A DNA stretch of 64,000 nt, taken from assembly GCF_021044625.1 (NCBI RefSeq), contig NZ_CP087999.1, forward strand, positions 3,431,001 through 3,495,000. The letters run 5' to 3'. Source of the DNA: Geomonas sp. RF6 (GTDB lineage: Bacteria; Desulfobacterota; Desulfuromonadia; Geobacterales; Geobacteraceae). Every line of letters begins with the position of its first letter. Positions within the stretch are counted from its first letter, which is position 1. Position numbers and translations under genes: made by a program. Positions 46,189 through 58,691 of the stretch are shown piece by piece. The notes under the pieces are model-generated. The model was given only the letters and a program-made list of their open reading frames with translations, was not told the origin of the DNA and did not search any database.

Positions 46189-47064
46189 TCATCCCGCGGC
46201 TCTTCCAGGTGCGGCGGCGGGGGAGGAGACGGTCTCCTGCACATCCTCGTACGATATCTCATGGATCTCCATCTCCAGAAGGTCTATGGAGAGCTTTCTC
46301 CTGCGCAAAAGCTCTCCCTTCCCCAGAAGGATTTTGCATGCCTCGGCAACCTCCAGGCTCGCCACGACGGCTGGGGTGAAGGAGGGATTGCCGAGCTCCT
46401 TTTCGATACCTTTCCCTGCGCTCCAGTTGCGATAGATCTGCTGCACGGTGCGATCTCCCGGGAGCTGGGTCGCCACCTGCCCGTACCAGCCGCCGATCGC
46501 TCCGTACACCATGGGGATGGCGAGCTCCGCGCAGCTTTCCGCGAGCTCGAGCCTCACCGCTATGCTGTCCAGTGCGTCGACGACGACGTCGCAGCCGCGC
46601 AGGATCTCCTCTCCGTTCCCTGCACAGTACGCCTTGTAGTGGGGGGTGACCGTGACTGCGGGATTTATCTCCGCCACCCGGCGGTACGCCATCTCCACCT
46701 TCGGCTTGCCGAGTGACTTCGGGGAAGAGAGGAGCTGGCGGTTCAGGTTGTGCTCCTCGAAGATGTCGGGATCGACAGCGACGATCTGGCCGACGCCTAA
46801 ACGCGCCAGTTCCTCTATCACATACCCGCCGAGCCCGCCGCAGCCGATCACCGCGGCGCGGCTGGCGAAAAGGCGCGCCTGCCCCGCCGCATCGATCATC
46901 TTCCGGTTGCGCTGGTAGCGCGCCGGGAAGAGGCCGTTTGACAGGGCAGCTTCTTCCACCGCGGCATGGCTGAGGCCAAAGCGCACGGCAGCGCTGTCCT
47001 GGACGGACCAGGGGAGGAGGCCGTCTGCGGCGCCCTCCTTCAGGTATGCGAGGAGATTCTCCAT
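46189..47064 (-). CDS. ThiF/MoeB-type adenylyltransferase of the tungsten/MoaD locus
   Basis: 291 residues. An N-terminal extension of about 50 residues precedes the E1-like domain with GCGGLGG at 74-80 and EHNLNRQLL. The two CxxC zinc pairs seen in MoeB are absent. It starts directly after moaD (stop to start with no gap) and follows AOR, the usual AOR-MoaD-ThiF order. It probably activates the adjacent MoaD for tungstopterin synthesis. ThiF for thiamine is less likely. Confidence 0.83.
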   Translation of the reverse strand: MENLLAYLKEGAADGLLPWSVQDSAAVRFGLSHAAVEEAALSNGLFPARYQRNRKMIDAAGQARLFASRAAVIGCGGLGGYVIEELARLGVGQIVAVDPDIFEEHNLNRQLLSSPKSLGKPKVEMAYRRVAEINPAVTVTPHYKAYCAGNGEEILRGCDVVVDALDSIAVRLELAESCAELAIPMVYGAIGGWYGQVATQLPGDRTVQQIYRNWSAGKGIEKELGNPSFTPAVVASLEVAEACKILLGKGELLRRRKLSIDLLEMEIHEISYEDVQETVSSPAAAPGRAAG

Positions 47065-47289
47065 CTACCCTCCACCGACGAGCGGGAACATCGACAGGGT
47101 GTCCCCTTCCTGCAACGCGTCATCGAGGGAGACGTGGCGGCCGTTTACCAGCACGATCCCCATCTCTTCCTCGGTGATCCCCACTTCCTCCATCACGGAA
47201 CGGCCGGTCGTGCCGCACGGGTACTCCCGGTCGGCGACCTTGAACCTGTTATCCCTGAAGGAGGCGAAAAGCTTTACGGTAATCTTCAT
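47065..47289 (-). CDS. moaD: MoaD-like molybdopterin synthase small subunit
   Basis: 74-residue ubiquitin fold protein (MKITVKLFASFRDNRFKVADREY, ending FPLVGGG). The GlyGly end would carry the thiocarboxylate used to make the dithiolene of molybdopterin. It ends in a third Gly, so the terminus may be processed or the GGG is used directly. It lies between AOR and the ThiF-like gene. No moaE is seen in the window. Confidence 0.87.
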   Translation of the reverse strand: MKITVKLFASFRDNRFKVADREYPCGTTGRSVMEEVGITEEEMGIVLVNGRHVSLDDALQEGDTLSMFPLVGGG

Positions 47290-47347
47290 GACCAAACCTT
47301 GATGTTGGTGTGTAGCTTCGATGCTAGCTGCCCGATTTTTCGAAAGG

Positions 47348-47408: not shown

Positions 47409-49139
47409 TTAGAAGTTCCAGAACTCGTCGATCTCTGCGTCGGAGAAGTCCCACAGCGCGTTGTGCGGTGCGACCGGCTCGTACTTGAAGAACTCGGGGA
47501 GCCTGTCGTGGGCGTTTGTGAACCCTGCCGCCACGTTGAAGGCGCGCTCGGTCTTCAGGACGTACTTGCCGAGGGCTACGACGTCGTCGCCGGTCAGGTT
47601 GATGCCGTAGCGGGCGTTGATCATGTCGATGAGGGCCGGGAGGCACTCGGCGATGTCCAGCGCCGGGAAGGCGACGAAGATGCACATGCCGGTGGAGTCA
47701 ACCGCGGCGGTAGCGATCTGCAGGTTGCGGGAGAGCTCGACCTGGCCGTCTTTCTTCAGCGGATCGACGTGGCCGCCGACGTTCAGGATGTTCGTGGCGA
47801 TGGTGTAGCCGGAGGTGTGGTCGGCGCCCATGGTGGAGGTAGCGTAGGTGATGCCGATACCTTTGACGGAACGCGGGTCGTATGCCGGAATCCCCTGGTT
47901 TTTGACGACCGGGGTGCGGACAACGCCGTAGGTGCGGCCGACGGAGCCGGCGCCGTTGCCGAGGATGCGCCCGAGGGCGGTCCCTTTCGCCACCTCTTCA
48001 CGCAGCAGGCGAAGAACGCCTTTGCCGTCGCCGAAGGGGATGATACCTGCTTCCATCGCCACGCCGAACATGACGGCGCCCTCGATGGAGTCGATCCCCA
48101 CGTCGTCCATGGCGTTGTCTGCCTTGGCGATGTCGTCGAGGTCGGAGATCATGCAGTCGGCGCCCAGGCCCCAGATCGTCTCGTACTCGAAGCCGGAGGT
48201 GATGTATTTACCCTGCTCGTCAACGTACTCCTGGGAGCACTGGATGATGCACCCTGCGTGGCAGCCGTGCTTGTGCTTGCCGCCGCGCTTCACGATCGTG
48301 TCGTACATCGTCTCGCCGGAGATGTTGTCGTGGTGTGCGCACTGACCCTGGGTGAAGTTGCGGGTCGGGAGGCCGCCTGCCTCGTGCAGGATGTTCACGA
48401 GGACGTTCGTGCCGTAGGTCGGCAGACCCTGGCCGGAGACCGGGTGGTCGAGCATCGCTTTGGCAAAGGTGCGGGCAGCGGTCTTGAACTTCTCCGGGTC
48501 AGCGACCGGTACCGGTGCGGAGCCGGTCTCGTCGATGGTGATGTACTTGATCTTCTTGGAGCCCATGACTGCGCCGAGGCCGCCGCGGCCGTGGCTGCGG
48601 ATCTTGGAGTCGGGGTCCTTGACGGAGATGTTGGCGGAGGTCATGAGGTACTCGCCGGCCGGGCCGATGGTGATGACGCCGGCTTTCTTGCCGAGTTTCG
48701 CCTCAACCGCGTCGATGACCGCGAAGTTGCCTTTGCCGACGAGCTCCTTCTCTTCCTGGATCGTCACGCCGTTCATGGTGACCTGGAGGCTGTACCACTT
48801 GTCCTCTTTCGGCTGACCTTCGATGATGATCGCCTTCACACCCATGCGGGCAAGCTGCTGCGCCGCGGTGCCGCCGGCGTTACTTTCCTTGATGGTCCCG
48901 GTCAGCGGGCTCTTCGCGCCGGCCGAGAGGCGGCCGCTCTGTGCTGCTGCGGTACCGGTGAGGAGTCCCGGAGCAAAAACGAGCTTGTTGCTGGGGCCAA
49001 GGGGGTTGCAGGTGGGGGGTACTTCAGCTGCGACGATGGTGGAGGTGAGGCTGCGCCCGCCATAGGGTGCCCATGCTGCGGGGACTGCTTCGATCTTGCT
49101 CGTCTTGTCCGTCATGTTCACGCGAATGATTTTTTCCAT
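47409..49139 (-). CDS. aor: Aldehyde:ferredoxin oxidoreductase (tungsten enzyme)
   Basis: Oxidises aldehydes to acids, or reduces acids, with ferredoxin; binds tungstopterin and one [4Fe-4S]. 576 residues, the AOR family length. N-terminal AOR domain starts MEKIIRVNMTDKTSK; cofactor loops include GPAGEYLMTSANISVKD and RSHGRGGLGAVMGSKKIKYI. Cluster cysteines are seen as CHAGCIIQC (CxxxCxxxC) with a further Cys near ATNALS. AGGGAG precedes ATG 49139. MoaD and ThiF-like genes follow. The substrate range is not given by sequence; a nearby alcohol dehydrogenase suggests an aldehyde intermediate. Confidence 0.9.
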   Translation of the reverse strand: MEKIIRVNMTDKTSKIEAVPAAWAPYGGRSLTSTIVAAEVPPTCNPLGPSNKLVFAPGLLTGTAAAQSGRLSAGAKSPLTGTIKESNAGGTAAQQLARMGVKAIIIEGQPKEDKWYSLQVTMNGVTIQEEKELVGKGNFAVIDAVEAKLGKKAGVITIGPAGEYLMTSANISVKDPDSKIRSHGRGGLGAVMGSKKIKYITIDETGSAPVPVADPEKFKTAARTFAKAMLDHPVSGQGLPTYGTNVLVNILHEAGGLPTRNFTQGQCAHHDNISGETMYDTIVKRGGKHKHGCHAGCIIQCSQEYVDEQGKYITSGFEYETIWGLGADCMISDLDDIAKADNAMDDVGIDSIEGAVMFGVAMEAGIIPFGDGKGVLRLLREEVAKGTALGRILGNGAGSVGRTYGVVRTPVVKNQGIPAYDPRSVKGIGITYATSTMGADHTSGYTIATNILNVGGHVDPLKKDGQVELSRNLQIATAAVDSTGMCIFVAFPALDIAECLPALIDMINARYGINLTGDDVVALGKYVLKTERAFNVAAGFTNAHDRLPEFFKYEPVAPHNALWDFSDAEIDEFWNF

Positions 49140-49352
49140 GTTTCTCCATCTCCCTATCATTTTGGGGTTACCGTAAATGACTCCTTTCCGGGAGGGAGGC
49201 TCCGCCGTTTCCCGCGAAACCCGTTGGCCGGACCCCGTGAGGGCTTCCCCTTTTAGGCTGTACGGCTCGGAGGTGCTGCGTTGAAGAACAGAAAAAGCGT
49301 GCTGCGGCGCCTGCTGCGCCACCTCGTCGGAGCGCGGCATAAGAGGGCACCT

Positions 49353-49433: not shown

Positions 49434-50597
49434 TTACATGGCGTCTTTGAAGATGCCGATAACCTGCTCAAGGGTAGCCTTGCGCGGGTTGGTGAACTGG
49501 CAGGCGTCTTTCTTCGCGTTTTCTGCCATGATCTTGAGGTCCTGCTCTTTAACGCCGAGCTGGGTGAGGTCAGCCGGGATCCCGATGGAAGCGGAGAGGC
49601 TGCGGATGCGGTCGATAGCTTTCTGGCCAGCTTCGGTCACGGAGAGGCCTTCGACGTTCTCGCCGAGGGCAACTGCGATGTCAGCAAAACGCTGCGGGCA
49701 GGCGATCAGGTTGTACTGGGAAACTGCCGGGAGCAGGATCGCGTTGCAGACGCCGTGCGGGAGGTTGTAGAAGCCGCCCAGCTGGTGAGCCATGGAGTGA
49801 ACGTAGCCGAGGGAGGCGTTGTTGAATGCCATACCTGCGAGGTACTCGGCGTATGCCATCTTGTCACGAGCTTCGAGGTCCTCACCGTTGGCAACAGCCT
49901 TGGAGAGGTAAGCTGCGATGAGCTCGATAGCTTTGATTGCGCATGCGTCGGTGATCGGGGTAGCGATCGTGGAAACGTATGCCTCGACAGCGTGGGTAAG
50001 GGCGTCCATACCGGTTGCTGCGGTCAGTGCGGGCGGCTTGCCGACCATGAGGACCGGATCGTTGATAGCGACGTTCGGGGTTACCCTCCAGTCAACGATT
50101 GCCATCTTGACATGGGTGTCGGTGTTGGTGATGATGCAGAAACGGGTCATTTCAGACGCGGTACCTGCGGTGGTGTTGATGGCGACGAACGGGGGGAAGC
50201 TCTTAGCGGACTTGTTCACGCCTTCGAAGTCGCGGATGTTGCCGCCGTTGGCGATAACAAGGCCAACGCCTTTGCAGCAGTCGTGGGAGGAGCCGCCGCC
50301 CAGGGAGATGAGGGCGTCGCACTTGTTGTCCTGGTACACTTTCACGCCGTCGTGTACGTTCTTGTCAGTCGGGTTCGGCTCAGCGCCGTCGAAGATTACG
50401 CACTCAACGCCAGCTGCCTTCACGATGTCAGCAATCTTGGCGGCAACGCCCATGGAGGAGAGGCCTTTGTCGGTCACGAGCAGGGCCTTCTTTGCGCCGA
50501 GCTGCTTGATCTGCTCACCGGCTTCCTTAGAAGCGCCGACGCCAAGGAGAGTTACCGTAGGAATGTAGAACCCGAATGTCTGATCTGCTAATGCCAT
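49434..50597 (-). CDS. Iron-containing (type III) alcohol dehydrogenase
   Basis: 387 residues, NAD(P)-dependent alcohol/aldehyde interconversion. N-terminal nucleotide-binding domain; metal ligands in DALTHAVEAYVS and in the hallmark GYVHSMAHQLGG and NLPHGVCNA. AGGAGG lies before ATG 50597. It has a sigma-54 promoter with an upstream operator array. Together with AOR it could run alcohol to acid oxidation. A preference for a short-chain alcohol such as ethanol or butanol is inferred from family members. Confidence 0.92.
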   Translation of the reverse strand: MALADQTFGFYIPTVTLLGVGASKEAGEQIKQLGAKKALLVTDKGLSSMGVAAKIADIVKAAGVECVIFDGAEPNPTDKNVHDGVKVYQDNKCDALISLGGGSSHDCCKGVGLVIANGGNIRDFEGVNKSAKSFPPFVAINTTAGTASEMTRFCIITNTDTHVKMAIVDWRVTPNVAINDPVLMVGKPPALTAATGMDALTHAVEAYVSTIATPITDACAIKAIELIAAYLSKAVANGEDLEARDKMAYAEYLAGMAFNNASLGYVHSMAHQLGGFYNLPHGVCNAILLPAVSQYNLIACPQRFADIAVALGENVEGLSVTEAGQKAIDRIRSLSASIGIPADLTQLGVKEQDLKIMAENAKKDACQFTNPRKATLEQVIGIFKDAM

Positions 50598-50704
50598 GTT
50601 TACTTCCTCCTGTTGGTTTTTTTGAGGTGCTGCCACCTCTTGGTTAGCCGTACGCAATTGGCCGATTATTGCATACGGTTTTGTAAAACGGTTTTCTAGC
50701 TTAC

Positions 50705-50719
50705 GCAATCGCCGTACCA
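50705..50719 (-). promoter_or_regulatory. Sigma-54 promoter of the alcohol dehydrogenase gene
   Basis: On the minus strand TGGTACG-GCGA-TTGC, one mismatch to TGGCACG-N4-TTGC, with correct -24/-12 spacing. Transcription would start near 50693, about 95 bp before the start codon. Confidence 0.82.
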
Positions 50720-50824
50720 AAAATGTTGTATACTTAGTTTTTTGTCATCTCTTTCCGTTTGTGCTCGGAAAAACAGGGGTTTCACCTCTGCGCCCTTTTT
50801 CCGCCTGATTTTCACTTTTGCGCT

Positions 50825-50891
50825 CCGTTCTGAAAGGGAACGGTCAGTATGTTCCAATGTGGAACAGTTGTTTTGTTTTGGAACGGTCCGT
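50825..50891. promoter_or_regulatory. Repeated palindromic sites, probable upstream activator sequences
   Basis: CCGTTC-N7-GAACGG (50825-50843), TGTTCC-AATGT-GGAACA (50850-50866), and AACGG-T-CCGTT (about 50882-50892). They lie 110-190 bp upstream of the sigma-54 start, the usual place for enhancers. They also sit within the moaA upstream region, so they could serve both directions. Confidence 0.6.
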
Positions 50892-51109
50892 TTTCCTTTC
50901 GGGCAACCGTTTTGTTTCCTTGTATACGATTACATGGGGGACGCATAATAATAAGTCGTTTCCCTGTAATCAAGGGTATTATGAAGTGGGTTGCGGTATA
51001 CGCCGGAGAAATTCGCTGCCGGCTGCGGCGCGTTGGTACCGTTATTGCCTAGCAACCCTGAGATTTTCCTCTTTTTTTGACTTCAACCACTGCGAGAGAA
51101 GGCAGCGAC

Positions 51110-52084
51110 ATGGCTCTTATAGATTCGTTCGGCAGGCGCATAAACTACCTCAGGCTCTCCATAACCGACCGCTGCAACCTGCGCTGCTCCTACTGTATGC
51201 CCGCGGAAGGGGTGCCCAAGCTGCAGCACGAGTCGATGCTGAGCTACGAGGATCTCTTCCGTGTCGCCTCCACCGCTGTGGAGGTGGGAATCGAGAAGAT
51301 CCGCGTCACCGGCGGCGAGCCGCTGGTGAGAAAAGGGGTGGTGTCGTTCCTGGAGAGGCTGGCGAAGACTCCCGGTCTCAAGGAACTTGTCCTTACCACA
51401 AACGGCGTGTTGCTGGGGGAGATGGCCCACGACCTGCGCAGGGCAGGGGTGGAGCGACTCAATATCAGCCTGGACTCGTTAAAGCCCGAAACGTTCAAAC
51501 GTATCACCCGTTCAGGAGACCTAGGGAAGGTCCTGGACGGAATAGCCGCAGCGGAGGATGCCGGATTCCCGCCGGTGAAGATAAATATGGTGGTGATGCG
51601 GGGAGTAAATGATGAAGAGGTGCTGGACTTCGCGGCGCTTACCCTGAAGAAGCCGTACACGATCCGGTTCATAGAGTACATGCCAACCTTGAAGTGTCAA
51701 GGATGGCACGAAAAAAGTTTCTCGGGAGGGGAGATCCTGGAGCGGATCGGGGAGCGCTACCCGCTCCTCCCTCTCGTGAGCACCGAGATGGCGGGGCCGG
51801 CGCGCAACTTCAGGATCGAGGGTGCGCCGGGGTCGATCGGGATCATCACTCCGATATCCGGGCACTTCTGCGACAGCTGCAACCGCATCAGGATCACCGC
51901 CTCCGGGATGGTGCGCGGCTGCCTCTTTGCGGAAAAGGGGGAGGATCTGAAGCCCCTGCTGAAAGACGACGATCCGGAGATCCTGCGGGAAACCTTGAGG
52001 CGGATCGTGACGGAGAAACCGGACCGGCACCAGCTCGCCGACAAAGAGAGCGGCGGTGTTGCCATGTCCCAGATAGGCGGCTAG
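51110..52084 (+). CDS. moaA: GTP 3',8-cyclase MoaA
   Basis: First enzyme of Moco synthesis, a radical SAM enzyme with two [4Fe-4S] clusters. N-terminal set Cys22, 26, 29 (CNLRCSYC); C-terminal set Cys254, 257, 271 (FCDSCNRIRI and RGCLF); C-terminal GlyGly (QIGG) present. 324 residues, full length. ATG 51110 is chosen; an in-frame ATG at 51077 lacks a good site. In this locus it supplies pterin for AOR (W) and other enzymes. Confidence 0.95.
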   Translation: MALIDSFGRRINYLRLSITDRCNLRCSYCMPAEGVPKLQHESMLSYEDLFRVASTAVEVGIEKIRVTGGEPLVRKGVVSFLERLAKTPGLKELVLTTNGVLLGEMAHDLRRAGVERLNISLDSLKPETFKRITRSGDLGKVLDGIAAAEDAGFPPVKINMVVMRGVNDEEVLDFAALTLKKPYTIRFIEYMPTLKCQGWHEKSFSGGEILERIGERYPLLPLVSTEMAGPARNFRIEGAPGSIGIITPISGHFCDSCNRIRITASGMVRGCLFAEKGEDLKPLLKDDDPEILRETLRRIVTEKPDRHQLADKESGGVAMSQIGG

Positions 52085-52178: not shown

Positions 52179-52346
52179 GTGAAAGGTAAAGACAAGAAGG
52201 CGAACATCATCTCCATAAGGATGAGCGACGACGAGCGCGCAGCCGTGCAGCAGATAATGGACCGGACGAACAAGAAGGCTTCCAACGTCATGCGCGAGGC
52301 GTTCACCCTCCTGAAGGAGAAATGGGAGACGTCGCGCCCGGAGTAG
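52179..52346 (+). CDS. Ribbon-helix-helix domain protein
   Basis: 55 residues beginning with GTG at 52179 after CAGGAGGG. Short beta-strand (ANIISIRMSDDERAAVQQI) and two helices (NKKASNVMREAFTLL) give a CopG/Arc-like ribbon-helix-helix fold. It probably is a small DNA-binding regulator or the antitoxin type without a visible toxin partner. Located between moaA and the radical SAM/SPASM gene. Confidence 0.7.
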   Translation: MKGKDKKANIISIRMSDDERAAVQQIMDRTNKKASNVMREAFTLLKEKWETSRPE

Positions 52347-52362
52347 GCGGTCAGCGTCCCTG

Positions 52363-52441
52363 CTCTGTCGTGGCAGGGGGCTCCCCGGCAGGCGCGCGCG
52401 GCCGTTCCTTTTCTCCCGCGCCGTCCCGGTTCACGACAGAG
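52363..52441 (+). promoter_or_regulatory. Leader inverted repeat before the radical SAM/SPASM gene
   Basis: CTCTGTCGTG (52363-52372) pairs with CACGACAGAG (52432-52441), closing a 59-base GC-rich loop that contains further pairing (GGGG/CCCC, GGCGCG). It lies between the RHH gene and the radical SAM gene. Function unknown. Confidence 0.45.
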
Positions 52442-52565
52442 AATCTTGATTCCACCATCTCTCAAGGCACGGTGTGACAGCTGGAATACCGTGGAGGGGG
52501 AGGTCCCTCGAAGGAGGGGGCGTCCCCGGAGGTGTCAACCGGCTCCACCGTCATGTGAGGGCGAA

Positions 52566-53861
52566 ATGTATACCTGTTCCTCCGCTACCCTTTCCGGCCC
52601 CTGCATGGAGACCGGCGAGGCGCTCCTAGAATACCCCTCCCGGCTTTTCGTGGAGACCACCACCCGCTGCAATCTGAGCTGCCTCCAATGCAGGAAGCAG
52701 CGCCCGGACGCCTACCGCAGGCACGACGGCGACCTCGATCTCTCCACCTTCAAGTCTCTGGAGGGGGCTCTCTCGACCCTCGATTCCCTCGTCCTCAACG
52801 GGGTAGGGGAGCCTCTGCTGAACAGCCACCTCGAGCAGTTCGTGAAGCGCGCGAAGAACCTCATGCCCGACGGGAGCTGGGTAGGTTTCCGCAGCAACGG
52901 CATCCTCCTCACCAACATGCGTGCCATCTCCCTCGTCGACGCCGGCCTGGACCGCATCTGCCTCTCCATGGAGGGGGCCGATGTCGCCTCCTCCGGGTCC
53001 GTGCGCTCCGGCAATCAGCTTATGGACCTCGAATGGGCGCTGAAGGCGCTCTCCTCGGCAAAATCGATCTGCAGCCGTCCCGCGCTCGACGTGGGGGTGG
53101 AGTACGTGGTGGAGCGCGACAACCTGGAGGAGCTCCCGGCTGCCCTGGAGTGGGCCGCGGCCCGCGGCGCGAGCTTTGCCATCGTCTCCAACCTGCACGC
53201 CTGCGCCGACCCTGCGGCGGAGAGGCTCCCGGCACCCGGGTGCGACGAGGCGCTTGCCTTGTACCAGGTATGGAAGAGGGAGGCGGAGGCTCAGGGGGTG
53301 GAGATAACCCGCTACTTCGAAATCCTCTGGAAGTACCACAAGACCCCCGGCGAGCGCAGGATCATCGATTTTGTGGCCGCCCTGAAGGGGGAGGCGCAGC
53401 AGCGCGGCGTCACCCTCGATCTTAAGGCGCTCTTCGCCCGCGACTCGCACCATCAGGAGGAGAGCCGCTCGGTCCTCGAGAGGGCGCAGGATGTTGCGCG
53501 CAGGACGGGGCTCGAGCTGAAGCTCCCGGAGAACGCGCTCCATCGTGGAAGGGGCTGCGCCTCTGTGGAGCAGGGGGGGGCCTTCATCTCCTGGGACGGC
53601 AGGATGCTGCCGTGCTACCGTGTCTGGGGGGACTGCCGCACCGGCGCCTTTCCCGCCGCTCCTCCGATGATCTTCGGCAACGTCCTGGAGGAGGACATTC
53701 TGGATATCTGGAACAGCCGACCCTTCCGCACCTACCGCGAGAGCGCCCTGATGGACGACCTCTCCGCCGGCTTCGCCTCCTGCGCCGACGAGGAGTCCCC
53801 GGCGGGGTCCGAATGCAACAGCTGTCTGTGGAGCTACGGAGTCTTCAGCTGGCTCGACTGA
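52566..53861 (+). CDS. Radical SAM/SPASM protein, probable maturase of a tungsten oxidoreductase
   Basis: 431 residues. Radical SAM cluster CNLSCLQC (Cys35, 39, 42); C-terminal SPASM-like Cys-rich part (LPCYRVWGDC, then ASCADEE...ECNSC). Length and layout resemble the tungsten cofactor oxidoreductase radical SAM maturase family, whose members co-occur with AOR-like proteins. The AOR gene is 4 kb away, which supports it. A peptide-modifying role on another small protein is an alternative; no candidate substrate peptide is obvious. ATG 52566 follows GAGGGCG. Confidence 0.7.
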   Translation: MYTCSSATLSGPCMETGEALLEYPSRLFVETTTRCNLSCLQCRKQRPDAYRRHDGDLDLSTFKSLEGALSTLDSLVLNGVGEPLLNSHLEQFVKRAKNLMPDGSWVGFRSNGILLTNMRAISLVDAGLDRICLSMEGADVASSGSVRSGNQLMDLEWALKALSSAKSICSRPALDVGVEYVVERDNLEELPAALEWAAARGASFAIVSNLHACADPAAERLPAPGCDEALALYQVWKREAEAQGVEITRYFEILWKYHKTPGERRIIDFVAALKGEAQQRGVTLDLKALFARDSHHQEESRSVLERAQDVARRTGLELKLPENALHRGRGCASVEQGGAFISWDGRMLPCYRVWGDCRTGAFPAAPPMIFGNVLEEDILDIWNSRPFRTYRESALMDDLSAGFASCADEESPAGSECNSCLWSYGVFSWLD

Positions 53862-53881
53862 ATGAAATGTGAATAGATGCT

Positions 53882-53942
53882 GGGGTCAGGCTTTGCATTT
53901 GGGGATTTCGCAACCGAATGCCCAAATGCAAAGCCTGACCCC
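53882..53942. repeat. Perfect 22-bp inverted repeat, likely mobile element remnant
   Basis: GGGGTCAGGC...ATTTGGG (53882-53903), 17-base loop, and the exact reverse complement (53921-53942). The core with GACCCC ends and a (T)TTGCAT(T) centre resembles ends of small repeats linked to Y1/REP-type transposases in proteobacteria. No transposase gene is present here. Confidence 0.75.
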
Positions 53943-54104
53943 GCTCACCCCCTTCTCGGCCGGCCTATCCTGCCATTTTTCTTCTCTCTTTCCCCTCCGG
54001 AGCTCACTCATCTCTGGCACATTTTTTCTCTTTGTACTAAGATGATGAAAATTTTCTGGAAAGCTGCGCTCTGTCCTGTTATTGTATACACCCGTGCGCG
54101 AGGC

Positions 54105-54349: not shown

Positions 54350-55201
54350 ATGTTTGAGGTAGTGAGCAATGAGGTACTGGCGCCGAACCTGCACCGTCTG
54401 GTGCTGAAGGCTCCGCGGATCGCCGCGGCGCGTCAACCGGGTCAGTTTGTTATCGTGAGGGCCGCCCGCGGCGCCGAGCGCATCCCGCTTACCATCGGCG
54501 ACGCCGACCTCCAGGCGGGTACGATCACCCTCTTCATCCAGGCCGTCGGGGCCTCCACCCGCCAGATCGTCGCAGTTCCGGCAGGGGGGGCGCTCTCCGA
54601 CGTGGCCGGGCCGCTCGGGAAGCCGACCCACATCCAGAAGTGGGGGCGCGTCGTCTGCGTCGGCGGCGGGGTGGGGACTGCCGTCCTCTACCCGCTGGTG
54701 CGCGGCGTCGCTGAAGCGGGCAACTCCATCACCACCATCATCGGAGCTCGCAACAAGGATCTGGTGATCCTCGAGAAGGAACTGACCGCCCTCTCGGAGA
54801 ACCTGCTCATCACCACCGAGGACGGCAGCGCCGGGCGCAAAGGCTTCGTCACCGACGTCCTGAAGGACCTCCTCGTCGACCCGGAGAAAAAGCCGGACAT
54901 CGTCTTCGCGGTCGGCCCCGTCCCCATGATGCGCGCCGTCTCCGAGGTGACGCGTCCTTTCGCGGTGGAGACGATCGTGAGCCTCTGCCCGATCATGATC
55001 GACGGCACCGGGATGTGTGGCGGCTGCCGCGTCGTGGTGGGGGGGGAGACCCGCTTTGCCTGCGTGGACGGCCCGGAGTTTGACGGTCACCTCGTCGATT
55101 TTGCCAGCTTGAGCGACCGGCTCACCACCTACCGTGAGCACGAACGGAGGCACCGCGAGAAGGAGTGCCATCTTATGAACCAGGAGGCGGCACGTGTCTA
55201 G
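54350..55201 (+). CDS. nfnA: NADH-dependent reduced ferredoxin:NADP oxidoreductase subunit A / sulfide dehydrogenase beta-like
   Basis: 283 residues: FAD-binding ferredoxin reductase domain, then NAD-binding domain (VVCVGGGVGTAVLYP), and a [2Fe-2S] cluster site near the end (LCPIMIDGTGMCGGCRV). The partner gene nfnB overlaps by 8 bp, which is the NfnAB (also SudBA) arrangement. NfnAB couples NADH and ferredoxin with NADP by electron bifurcation. With AOR nearby it could balance ferredoxin and NADPH. ATG 54350 chosen with AGAGGTGAG in front. Confidence 0.85.
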   Translation: MFEVVSNEVLAPNLHRLVLKAPRIAAARQPGQFVIVRAARGAERIPLTIGDADLQAGTITLFIQAVGASTRQIVAVPAGGALSDVAGPLGKPTHIQKWGRVVCVGGGVGTAVLYPLVRGVAEAGNSITTIIGARNKDLVILEKELTALSENLLITTEDGSAGRKGFVTDVLKDLLVDPEKKPDIVFAVGPVPMMRAVSEVTRPFAVETIVSLCPIMIDGTGMCGGCRVVVGGETRFACVDGPEFDGHLVDFASLSDRLTTYREHERRHREKECHLMNQEAARV

Positions 55202-56609
55202 TGAAGCAGTGAAAAAGAAGATGGCAAACCCGAGGGTGCACATGCCGGAGCTCGATGCGACGGTGCGCAGCCGCAACTTCGAGGAGGTGAATCAGGGTCT
55301 TACCTACGAGCAGGCAATCGAGGAAGCGGCACGCTGCATCCAGTGCAAGGGGCGTCCCTGCGTTGAGGGGTGCCCGGTGGCGGTCTCCATCCCGGAGATC
55401 CTCGACGCACTCGTGAACGAGAACCTCTCCGAGGCGGCCCGCATCCTCCAGGCCGACAACGCCCTTCCCGCCGTCTGCGGCCGCGTCTGTCCGCAGGAGC
55501 AGCAGTGCGAGTCGAAGTGCGTGCGCGGCATCAAGGGAGACCCGGTGGCGATCGGCTACCTGGAGCGCTTTGTGGCCGACTGGGCGATGCAGCATGCATC
55601 GGAGCTCCCCGCCGAGGCGCCTGCGACGGCGACCGGCAAGAAGGTGGCGATCGTCGGGTGCGGCCCCGCAGGGCTCACCGCGGCAGGATCGCTCGCCCGC
55701 CAGGGGCACCATGTGGTGATCTTCGAGGCGCTGCACGACACCGGCGGGGTGCTCCGCTACGGCATCCCGGAGTTCAGGCTTCCGAAGGAGATCATCGACC
55801 AGGAAGTGGCGCGCCTCCTCGACCTTGGAGTCACGATCGAGTGCAACGTGATCATCGGCAAGACCCTCACCCTCGCACAGCTGCGCGCGGAGTTCGACGC
55901 GGTCTTCATCGCCAACGGCGCAGGGCTTCCGATGATGCTGAACCTCCCGGGGGAGAACCTGAAGGGGGTGTACTCCGCGAACGAGTTCCTGACCCGCGTG
56001 AACCTGATGGAGGCCGGCCGCAGGGACGATTCCTCCACCCCGATCCTAACGGGCGACAGCGTCGCCGTTATCGGCGGCGGCAACACCGCCATGGACTGCG
56101 TACGCACCGCCAGAAGGCTTGGCGCCGGCCGCGCCATGATCGTCTACCGCAGGACCGAGGCAGAGATGCCCGCCCGCGTGGAGGAGATAAAACACGCCAA
56201 AGAAGAGGGGATCGAGTTCTTCCTGCTCACAGCCCCCCTCGAGGTGAAAGGGGATACCGAGGGGTGGGTGAACGGGCTCACCTGCCAGCAGATGGAACTC
56301 GGCGAGCCGGACGACTCCGGCCGTCGCCGCCCCGTCCCGGTCCCCGGCTCCGACTTCTTCCTGGAGGCGGACGTGGTAGTGAACGCCATCGGCACCCGCC
56401 CAAACCCGCTCCTCACCGCCGCGGCCCCCGAGCTGAAGCTGAACCGCTGGGGGAACATCGCCTGCGACGAGAACGGGGCCACCAATCTCCCCGGCGTCTT
56501 CGCCGGCGGTGACATCGTGCGCGGCGGGGCGACGGTGATTCTCGCCATGGGAGATGGCAAGAAAGCGGCCTCCGCTATTCACCGGTACCTTACCGGGGTT
56601 AATGAATGA
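55194..56609 (+). CDS. nfnB: NADPH-dependent reduced ferredoxin oxidoreductase subunit B (GltA/GltD-like)
   Basis: 471 residues of the GltD/NfnB family. N-terminal [4Fe-4S] sets CIQCKGRPCVEGCP and CGRVCPQEQQCESKC; FAD domain with VGCGPAGLTAAGSLA; NADPH domain with IGGGNTAMDCVRTARR. GTG 55194 is the start, overlapping nfnA. A glutamate synthase small subunit is the main alternative; the overlap with NfnA favours NfnB. Confidence 0.87.
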   Translation: MSSEAVKKKMANPRVHMPELDATVRSRNFEEVNQGLTYEQAIEEAARCIQCKGRPCVEGCPVAVSIPEILDALVNENLSEAARILQADNALPAVCGRVCPQEQQCESKCVRGIKGDPVAIGYLERFVADWAMQHASELPAEAPATATGKKVAIVGCGPAGLTAAGSLARQGHHVVIFEALHDTGGVLRYGIPEFRLPKEIIDQEVARLLDLGVTIECNVIIGKTLTLAQLRAEFDAVFIANGAGLPMMLNLPGENLKGVYSANEFLTRVNLMEAGRRDDSSTPILTGDSVAVIGGGNTAMDCVRTARRLGAGRAMIVYRRTEAEMPARVEEIKHAKEEGIEFFLLTAPLEVKGDTEGWVNGLTCQQMELGEPDDSGRRRPVPVPGSDFFLEADVVVNAIGTRPNPLLTAAAPELKLNRWGNIACDENGATNLPGVFAGGDIVRGGATVILAMGDGKKAASAIHRYLTGVNE

Positions 56610-56738: not shown

Positions 56739-58691
56739 ATGTCTTCACAATCTCTCGCGATACTGCAAAAGGCCTGGAGCCTCTTTGTCGAGGACAACAT
56801 CCTCGATGTGCAGCAGTTGCGGCCAGAGGTGGCGAACTCCTGGCAGCGTTGCCGTAATCTGAACATCAACCCGTACCTGGAGCCCGAGACCCGGGTGGAC
56901 CAGCTGGAGCTCAGGGAGCGCCTCTTCAAGAAGCAGCACCTCTTGAAGGTGGCGCGTCCCTTCCTCGACAACCTGTACAACTTCGTCAAGGGCTCCGGCT
57001 TCCAGGTCGTCCTCGCCGACGAGAACGGCTATCTTCTGGAGGTGCTGGGGGACAACGACATCGTCGCCCGCACCCGCCAGGTCCTCCTCTGTCCCGGCGG
57101 CAACTGGAACGAGACGATGAAGGGGACGAACGCCATCGGAACAGCGGTGGTGGAGAAGAAGCCGGTCCAGATCTACGCGTGGGAGCATTACTGTAAGCCG
57201 CACCACTTCCTCACCTGCTCGGCCGCCCCGATATTCGACCCGGACGGCGAGCTCATGGCCGTCCTCGATATCAGCGGCGACTATCGCGTCGCCAACGCCC
57301 ACACCCTCGGCATGGCCGTCGCGGCCGTGAACGCCATCGAAAACCAGCTGCGCCTCCTGAAGGCGACCGACAAGCTCTTCATGGCGTACCGCTACTCCAA
57401 CGCGCTCCTCGAGCACATGTCGGACGGTCTGATCTCCATCAACAACAACGGCATCGTCACCGAGATCAACGCCAAAGGCGCGGAGATCTTCGGCGTGAGC
57501 CCGGCCCAGGTGAAGGGGCGCCACGTCGACACGATCTACAACGCCCGCTCCACGCTCCTCAAAGTCCTCTCTGACGGCACCGAGTATGACGACCGCGAGA
57601 TCATCCTGGAGAAACTCGGGCGCAAGATCTACAGCTCCGCCTCCCTCTTGCGCGACGACGCTGGCGGCGTCATCGGCGCGGTCGCCGTTTTCCGCGAGCA
57701 CCACGGGCGCCAGCCGAGCAGGCAGCGTGCCACCGTCGTTCATTCCCACAGCTACACCTTCGACGACATCGTGGGGGAGAGCCCGGCGGTCGTCGCCGCG
57801 AAGGAGTGGGCGCGTCTTGCCGCCGCCAGCCCCTCCACCGTCCTCATCACCGGGGAGTCCGGGACCGGGAAGGAGCTCTTCGCCCAGTCGATCCACAACG
57901 CAAGCCAGCGCTCCGACCGTCAGTTCATTGCGCTTAACTGTGCCGCGCTTCCTGAGAACCTCATCGAGAGCGAGCTCTTCGGCTACGAAGAGGGAACCTT
58001 CACCGGCGCCAAGCGCGGCGGGCAGCAAGGGAAGTTCGAGATCGCCGACGGCGGCACGATCTTCCTCGACGAGATCGGCGACATGTCCCTCAACGTGCAG
58101 GCGAAGCTGTTGCGGGTTATCCAGGAGAAGAAGGTGGCCCGCATCGGCTCCTGCAACGAGAAGCTCGTGGACATCCGCATCATCGCCGCCACGCACAAGG
58201 ACCTGAGCCAGGAGGTACAGAAGGGGAATTTCCGCCAGGACCTTTACTACCGTCTGAACGTTCTCGGGATCCACATCCCCGCGCTGCGCGAGCGTCCCGA
58301 GGACTTCGGTCTGCTGACCCGCCACCTGGTGCAGAAGATCAGCACGAAGATCGGAAAGGACGTCCAGATCCACGACACCTTCCTGAAAAAGATTCAGGGT
58401 CACAGCTGGCCCGGCAACATCCGAGAGCTGGAGAACGCAGTCGAGCGCGCCATCATCCGCTGCGGAGTCGATGGCGTTCTCACCGGCGACCTCCTCGACT
58501 GCGGCACGACGCTGAAACCAAAGCCGGAGGTGCGAAAGACCGAGATCACCTCCCTGCGCGACGCGGAGAAGGGGATGATCTACGAAGTCCTCACCTTCTA
58601 CCAGGGGAACATCCAGAAGGCGTCTACCATGCTCGGCATCGGGCGCAACACCCTGTACCGCAAGATGAAGGAGTACGGGATCTCGTACTAG
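56739..58691 (+). CDS. Sigma-54-dependent activator, AcoR-like (GAF-PAS-AAA-Fis)
   Basis: 650 residues. N-terminal AcoR-type GAF region (about 60-205, [19 protein letters not shown]), a PAS domain (about 215-320), a central AAA+ domain with Walker A at 372-379, Walker B at 441-448, and a Fis-type HTH at the end ([19 protein letters not shown]). The sigma-54 contact motif reads GTFTGA (419-424) rather than GAFTGA. There is no receiver domain, so a small-molecule ligand is likely. It is the obvious candidate to act on the adh sigma-54 promoter, 6 kb away. Confidence 0.88.

Follow-up and report, generated by a model that had tools for sequence, protein, structure and literature searches.

A conserved, predicted bidirectional sigma-54 control region between the alcohol dehydrogenase gene adh and moaA in Geomonas sp. 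RF6

The intergenic region between adh and moaA of Geomonas sp. RF6 quite probably functions as a bidirectional sigma-54 control region. A single array of activator sites, most likely bound by the enhancer-binding protein (EBP) encoded at position 56739, would couple the expression of the alcohol dehydrogenase to that of moaA and a radical SAM maturase, and would also drive an AmiS/UreI-family gene located elsewhere in the genome. The control region comprises about 450 bases and contains two predicted sigma-54 promoters positioned back to back around one set of sites. It lies within a 64,000-nucleotide stretch of contig NZ_CP087999.1 (positions 3,431,001 to 3,495,000), referred to here as the window, and coordinates are those of the window unless another locus is named. 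As judged from comparison of genomes, the predicted promoters, the sites and their spacing are real and conserved.

The -24/-12 element of the adh promoter, TGGTACGGCGATTGC, is located at 50719..50705 on the minus strand. It contains one mismatch to the consensus TGGCACGNNNNTTGC and holds its position in all 27 adh orthologues, which bears out the near-perfect element of the original prediction. The promoter elements of both adh and moaA contain the GG and GC dinucleotides at the standard spacing within TGGCAC-N5-TTGC. A sigma-54 motif by itself proves little, because single matches are common by chance; the window contains 24 sequences with up to two mismatches, compared to 19.5 expected.

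Three 17-bp sites of the TGTTCC-N5-GGAACA type are located between the adh and moaA promoters. UAS2 (50850..50866, TGTTCCAATGTGGAACA) is a perfect TGTTCC-N5-GGAACA dyad, whose pattern has its sole exact match in the 5.26-Mb genome here, according to a genome-wide pattern search. UAS1 (50869..50885, CGTTCCAAAACAAAACA in the adh orientation) is degenerate, with the form TGT-N11-ACA, and UAS3 is at 50826..50842 (CGTTCCCTTTCAGAACG in the adh orientation). Measured from the adh -24 element, UAS1, UAS2 and UAS3 start 166, 147 and 123 bp upstream, which is the enhancer distance that had been proposed. Two of the three palindromes named in the original prediction were retained: CCGTTC-N7-GAACGG (50825-50843), an imperfect conserved site, and the dyad of UAS2. 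The third, AACGG/CCGTT at about 50882-50892, exists, yet is conserved in near relatives only, and its place in the array is taken by UAS1. Loose palindromes number 16 in the window, against 23 expected, and many weak matches to the 17-bp motif may arise by chance. The presence of three TGT-N10-12-ACA sites upstream of the sigma-54 promoter of an iron-type alcohol dehydrogenase gene is the arrangement of AdhR-type systems. Putative control of adh by sigma-54 through the upstream array is supported by the comparison of genomes.

A second -24/-12 element, which had been overlooked, faces in the opposite direction. It is located at 51034-51048 on the plus strand (TGGTACCGTTATTGC), 62 bp before the start codon of moaA, and contains two mismatches to the consensus. 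The presence of this conserved element supports the earlier suggestion that the array is common to adh and moaA. The gene moaA (51110..52084, plus strand; TIGR02666) encodes GTP 3',8-cyclase and is followed by two further genes (52179-53861, plus strand). The 55-residue protein encoded at 52179..52346 is ribbon-helix-helix-like, with a weak DUF6290 match below the cut-off, and its gene stays downstream in most of the relatives examined. The product of 52566..53861 is a putative radical SAM/SPASM metalloenzyme maturase (TIGR04311, above the cut-off). The divergent promoter faces moaA in most of the relatives examined. In two genomes that have no moaA at the locus, the promoter is intact and reads into the pair of ribbon-helix-helix and maturase genes (G030) or straight into the maturase gene (G047). 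Farther downstream on the plus strand are genes for a dihydroorotate dehydrogenase B-like FAD/NAD-binding electron-transfer subunit (54350..55201; NF004862) and a GltA/NfnB-like NADPH oxidoreductase (55194..56609; TIGR01316). A long near-perfect hairpin (GGGGTCAGGCTTTGCATTT...AAATGCAAAGCCTGACCCC) at 53870-53956, between the maturase and electron-transfer genes, resembles a repeat element, and Rfam gave only chance-level miRNA matches to it.

The moaA of the control region is the only one found in the genome of Geomonas sp. RF6, and the idea of a dedicated moaA paralogue was rejected there on this ground. Most of the relatives examined contain two or three moaA genes, and G030 and G047 contain one, elsewhere in the genome. 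Since it is the only copy found, the moaA next to adh must also serve other molybdenum and tungsten enzymes, some basal expression of it is to be expected, and cofactor synthesis may hinge on this regulated gene alone.

The conservation of the control region was evaluated using adh orthologues from 48 genomes of the family, among which the orthologous locus is present in 27 genomes from eight genera. Each of the 27 loci contains three features at similar positions: a sigma-54 site for adh (-107 to -129), a site resembling TGTTCC-N5-GGAACA (-246 to -277), and, at -415 to -437, the divergent sigma-54 site with its GG/GC and TTGC. An alignment of 17 genomes showed that UAS1-3 are conserved, typically 19 and 24 bp apart, together with both promoters, the ribosome site and a 27-nucleotide box in the adh leader. 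Column identity, calculated as mean pairwise identity in an alignment with one genome per genus, is 0.88 for the moaA-side promoter, where the conservation of the region is highest, 0.80 for the adh-side promoter, 0.78 for the leader box, and 0.73, 0.72 and 0.68 for UAS1-3, compared to 0.35 for the other 360 positions.

The genes on the adh side encode a pathway for which the cofactor would be required. The iron-containing alcohol dehydrogenase gene adh (49434..50597, minus strand; PF00465, PF25137) is followed by aor (47409..49139, minus strand; PF01314, PF02730), which encodes a tungsten-type aldehyde:ferredoxin oxidoreductase. An aptamer of the Mo/W-cofactor riboswitch precedes aor (49166..49282, minus strand; RF01055, 53.6 bits against a gathering score of 36). 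The aptamer is missing the P3 stem, and the P3-less form of the Moco/Tuco riboswitch was linked to the tungsten cofactor (PMC2408646). Aptamers of a similar kind are located before aor in each of the six other scanned adh-aor loci that hold the conserved array. The next genes on the minus strand encode a moaD-like sulfur carrier (47065..47343) and a moeB/ThiF-type adenylyltransferase (46189..47064; PF00899). The moaD-like gene was taken from the list of open reading frames, its orthologues are kept in place, and its name is based on the position between aor and moeB. In Geobacter metallireducens, the ethanol dehydrogenase Gmet_1046 and aldehyde:ferredoxin oxidoreductase Gmet_1045 have neighbouring locus numbers (PMC7324539), and aor genes of Pelobacter were likewise predicted to be riboswitch-controlled (PMC3543383). 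The grouping of adh, the riboswitch, and aor-moaD-moeB with moaA and the maturase gene therefore points to a module for the oxidation of alcohol to acid with its own cofactor supply. It fits the proposed co-regulation of aldehyde metabolism and cofactor supply, with the caveat that moaA is single. A second adh/aor copy, with 92% and 89% identity, is present at L037:8292-9655; it carries its own sigma-54 site and riboswitch, and its palindrome differs (TGTTCGTATACGGTACA). This paralogue seems to have switched activator specificity.

The 27-nucleotide leader box, AGAAAACCGTTTTACAAAACCGTATGC, is located just downstream of the adh promoter (50671..50697, minus strand) and had no place in the original prediction. 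Its palindromic part, AAAACCGTTTT, covers the predicted adh start site. When up to three mismatches are allowed, the box occurs in exactly two places in the genome of Geomonas sp. RF6: in the window and at 758123-758149 on the minus strand. Related genomes that have the locus contain one copy each, positioned at the adh promoter. In g13 promoters, an AAAAC...GTTTT element occurs again near the start site, with different spacers. Matches with two mismatches in G019, G025 and G027 were taken as chance, because their contexts in G019 and G027 are without the sigma-54/UAS pattern. A search of the adh leader against Rfam gave no match, and the only riboswitch found was that preceding aor. The leader can be folded into a hairpin (-26.5 kcal/mol, z -3.45 in the window), which was rejected as an RNA switch since the predicted folds of the relatives differ. 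A separate small hairpin, GAGGTGGCAGCACCTC, is located shortly 5' of the adh ribosome site (50622-50645, minus strand). Equivalent hairpins of the relatives are GGGTGGCAACACCC, CCGGG..CCCGG and TGTGG..CCACA, so that the predicted stem has apparently been kept through changes on both of its strands. We tentatively entertain a further possibility, in which the leader box, ARAAANNYGTTYTANRAARNYGTATGC, would be a second control element of the alcohol regulon, either an operator or an RNA signal, and a one-component GAF-PAS activator and a two-component response regulator would have replaced one another across genera on unchanged sites. A regulon-specific operator or RNA signal of this kind would, if true, be previously undescribed.

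The second copy of the leader box is located in a promoter with three sites matching the array, CGTTCCAAAACATAACA, TGCTCCACTATGGAACA and CGTTCCTTTTCAGAACT (loci L115 and L117 of the same genome, G000). Their distances from the -24 element are 167, 148 and 124 bp, compared to 166, 147 and 123 bp at adh. The three-site architecture thus recurs once more in the genome, with spacing within 1 bp. The gene downstream encodes a 175-residue membrane protein (G000:C1:757498-758022; L117:9496-10023, minus strand), which is marginally assigned to the AmiS/UreI family (PF02293, 26.5 bits against a cut-off of 25). In g13 and g2 genomes with the EBP orthologue, sigma-54 promoters are accompanied by TGTTCC/TGTTCT-type sites at both genes; the AmiS homologues have TGTTCT-type sites, and adh has TGTTCCAAAATGGATTG. 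AmiS/UreI-family homologues were also observed near other alcohol dehydrogenase genes in several relatives. In pattern searches of the whole genome of Geomonas sp. RF6, six near-perfect palindromes were identified. Three of them are paired with a sigma-54-like site at enhancer distance, for which a simple density model gives a binomial P of about 0.001, or 0.012 when the adh site is left out. Palindromes GGTTCCATTATGGAACA and TGTTCCAGATCGGGACT are located upstream of the [FeFe]-hydrogenase maturase genes hydE-hydG (L063:10263-10458), and the sigma-54 site there is 147 bp from the first palindrome, the same spacing as at adh. The hydE-hydG promoter region does not contain the leader box. It is possible that hydE-hydG is a third target of array-type control.

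The EBP encoded at 56739..58691 (plus strand) is composed of a GAF-PAS sensor region (PF01590, PF08448), an AAA+ sigma-54 interaction domain (PF00158, 3e-70) with the Walker A sequence GESGTGKE, and a C-terminal Fis-type helix-turn-helix (HTH) domain (PF02954, 2e-13). Its loop has the sequence GTFTGA, with one substitution relative to GAFTGA, and this variant also occurs in two of three close orthologues and in one clostridial relative. Orthologues with at least 56% identity are present in 14 of the 48 genomes, nearly always on the same contig as adh and at a short distance from it; in g13 and g2 genomes, most of them are adjacent to adh. Distant relatives from Clostridium (about 37-39% identical) directly adjoin iron-type alcohol dehydrogenase genes. 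Three of four such clostridial loci also contain the DHODB/gltA electron-transfer gene pair, and the inter-gene region of the Clostridium puniceum relative (L176) contains three 17-bp TGT-N11-ACA sites. As the only protein with an HTH of its type found in this genome, and with orthologues near adh, the 56739 protein is the best candidate for the activator here. The earlier assignment of this role is retained here, but it does not extend to all relatives, since some of those without the protein keep the array.

The array could be bound by a different, unlinked activator, in which case the 56739 protein would regulate something else. The array is conserved in the g7 genus and in G034, G036 and G037, where the 56739 orthologue is absent; it is absent from all seven of the array-keeping genomes for which every candidate was scored (four from g7 and these three). 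Another EBP must serve the array in these genomes, because the array is conserved there. A likely binder is a two-component EBP (REC-AAA+-HTH, about 510-520 residues), which is encoded beside a second alcohol dehydrogenase gene in genomes of this group (G011, G014, G021, G020, G025, G034 and G036) and in G047 as well. Its recognition helix, LGI[AG]RNTLYRK, is nearly the same as the 11-residue helix of the 56739 protein, and TGTTCC-type palindromes occur upstream of the second dehydrogenase gene in several genomes. This second dehydrogenase is more distant, with 42-45% identity (L105-L109, L113, L114). However, no second HTH of this type was found in the genome of Geomonas sp. RF6 at E<=1e-5, and linkage to adh is a feature of the 56739 orthologues. 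An unlinked activator is therefore rather unlikely here. The simplest reading is that activators have probably been exchanged between genera on conserved sites, with the 56739 protein acting in Geomonas sp. RF6.

It is also conceivable, but we consider it quite improbable, that only adh is under sigma-54/EBP control, and moaA is transcribed from an ordinary promoter beside a decayed or non-productive element. An ordinary promoter would be expected of a single-copy housekeeping gene, and the moaA-side element has the two mismatches. Nevertheless, this element is conserved far above the rest of the region (0.88 against 0.35), retains GG/GC and TTGC in 27 of 27 loci, and is kept where another gene stands downstream. 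Finally, the motifs could be chance occurrences in an AT-rich intergenic region, given that single -24/-12 and palindrome matches are about as frequent in the window as expected. The array is beyond chance because its positions are conserved in 27 genomes and in the alignment with one genome per genus. This conservation refutes a chance origin, and the agreement in spacing to within 1 bp between the adh and AmiS-gene promoters, together with the pairing of half of the near-perfect palindromes with sigma-54-like sites at the right distance, also speaks against it (P about 0.001, or 0.012 minus the adh site). We regard chance as extremely improbable.

Bidirectional control by a shared array may operate as follows. 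The EBP, likely the 56739 protein, would bind the three TGTTCC-N5-GGAACA-type sites upon sensing a signal, which may be alcohol, aldehyde or a redox cue. The array-bound EBP could loop in either direction and open the predicted sigma-54 promoters of both adh and moaA. The moaA-side promoter would drive moaA together with the ribbon-helix-helix and maturase genes. Expression of adh and moaA would presumably be raised together, so that alcohol oxidation would be coupled to the supply of the tungsten or molybdenum cofactor and to maturation for the aor product. The aor mRNA would be tuned separately by the cofactor riboswitch. The same activator may drive the AmiS/UreI-family membrane protein from elsewhere in the genome, and we speculate that this protein is a channel of alcohol metabolism. 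Purely alcohol-dependent control of moaA fits badly with its single copy, unless a basal promoter is present.

In Geobacter-like bacteria, the oxidation of ethanol feeds both syntrophy and respiration on electrodes, and the literature searchable here yielded no account of its activation. One enhancer array that couples an alcohol dehydrogenase to the cofactor synthesis and maturation of a tungsten aldehyde oxidoreductase would constitute a specific and testable circuit. It agrees with the suggestion from the genome of G. metallireducens that Geobacteraceae multiply moaA to make more molybdopterin for particular processes (PMC2700814), though moaA is single in the genome of Geomonas sp. RF6. 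The region may also provide a natural case of conserved predicted binding sites served by different activators.

The RpoN regulon of Geobacter sulfurreducens, a neighbouring organism, lists an RpoN-dependent alcohol dehydrogenase; neither moaA nor a gene for an aldehyde oxidoreductase is named in the text (PMC2725144). The AorR regulon of Clostridiales has predicted sigma-54 control of aor-moaD (PMC6615313) and resembles the window in the predicted link between sigma-54 and a tungsten aldehyde oxidoreductase that is accompanied by moaD. The AorR promoter is placed before aor-moaD. In the window, it is adh and moaA that have the conserved sigma-54 promoters, and the aor leader contains a riboswitch. 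The aptamer is an ordinary member of RF01055, P3-less before a tungsten enzyme gene (PMC2408646), and would represent an additional layer of control. The closest precedent is the AdhR regulon of Clostridium beijerinckii, in which AdhR activates the iron-type alcohol dehydrogenase genes adhA1 and adhA2 with sigma-54 through three upstream sites, all of them reportedly needed (PMC7017808). The TGT/ACA class of sites was described for AdhR and AorR (PMC6615313). The two systems are alike in the GAF-PAS-AAA+-HTH activator, the iron-type dehydrogenase target and the three upstream sites. Half-sites of AdhR-type clostridial systems are TGTCCT/TGTCAT, in contrast to TGTTCC here. Unlike those of the AdhR regulon, the sites in the window are predicted to serve a divergent cofactor-biosynthesis promoter as well, and a conserved leader box is present. 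The FhlA-controlled hyc/hyp system of Escherichia coli also consists of divergent sigma-54 operons with common activator sites, which link an enzyme to its maturation genes, but its activator, sites and pathway differ from those of the adh-moaA region. Judged by its predicted elements, the adh-moaA region is functionally coherent and belongs with the sigma-54/EBP alcohol regulons, a class already known. Within this class, it is set apart by the predicted bidirectional enhancer shared by both promoters, by the leader box, and by an activator that has probably changed from genus to genus.
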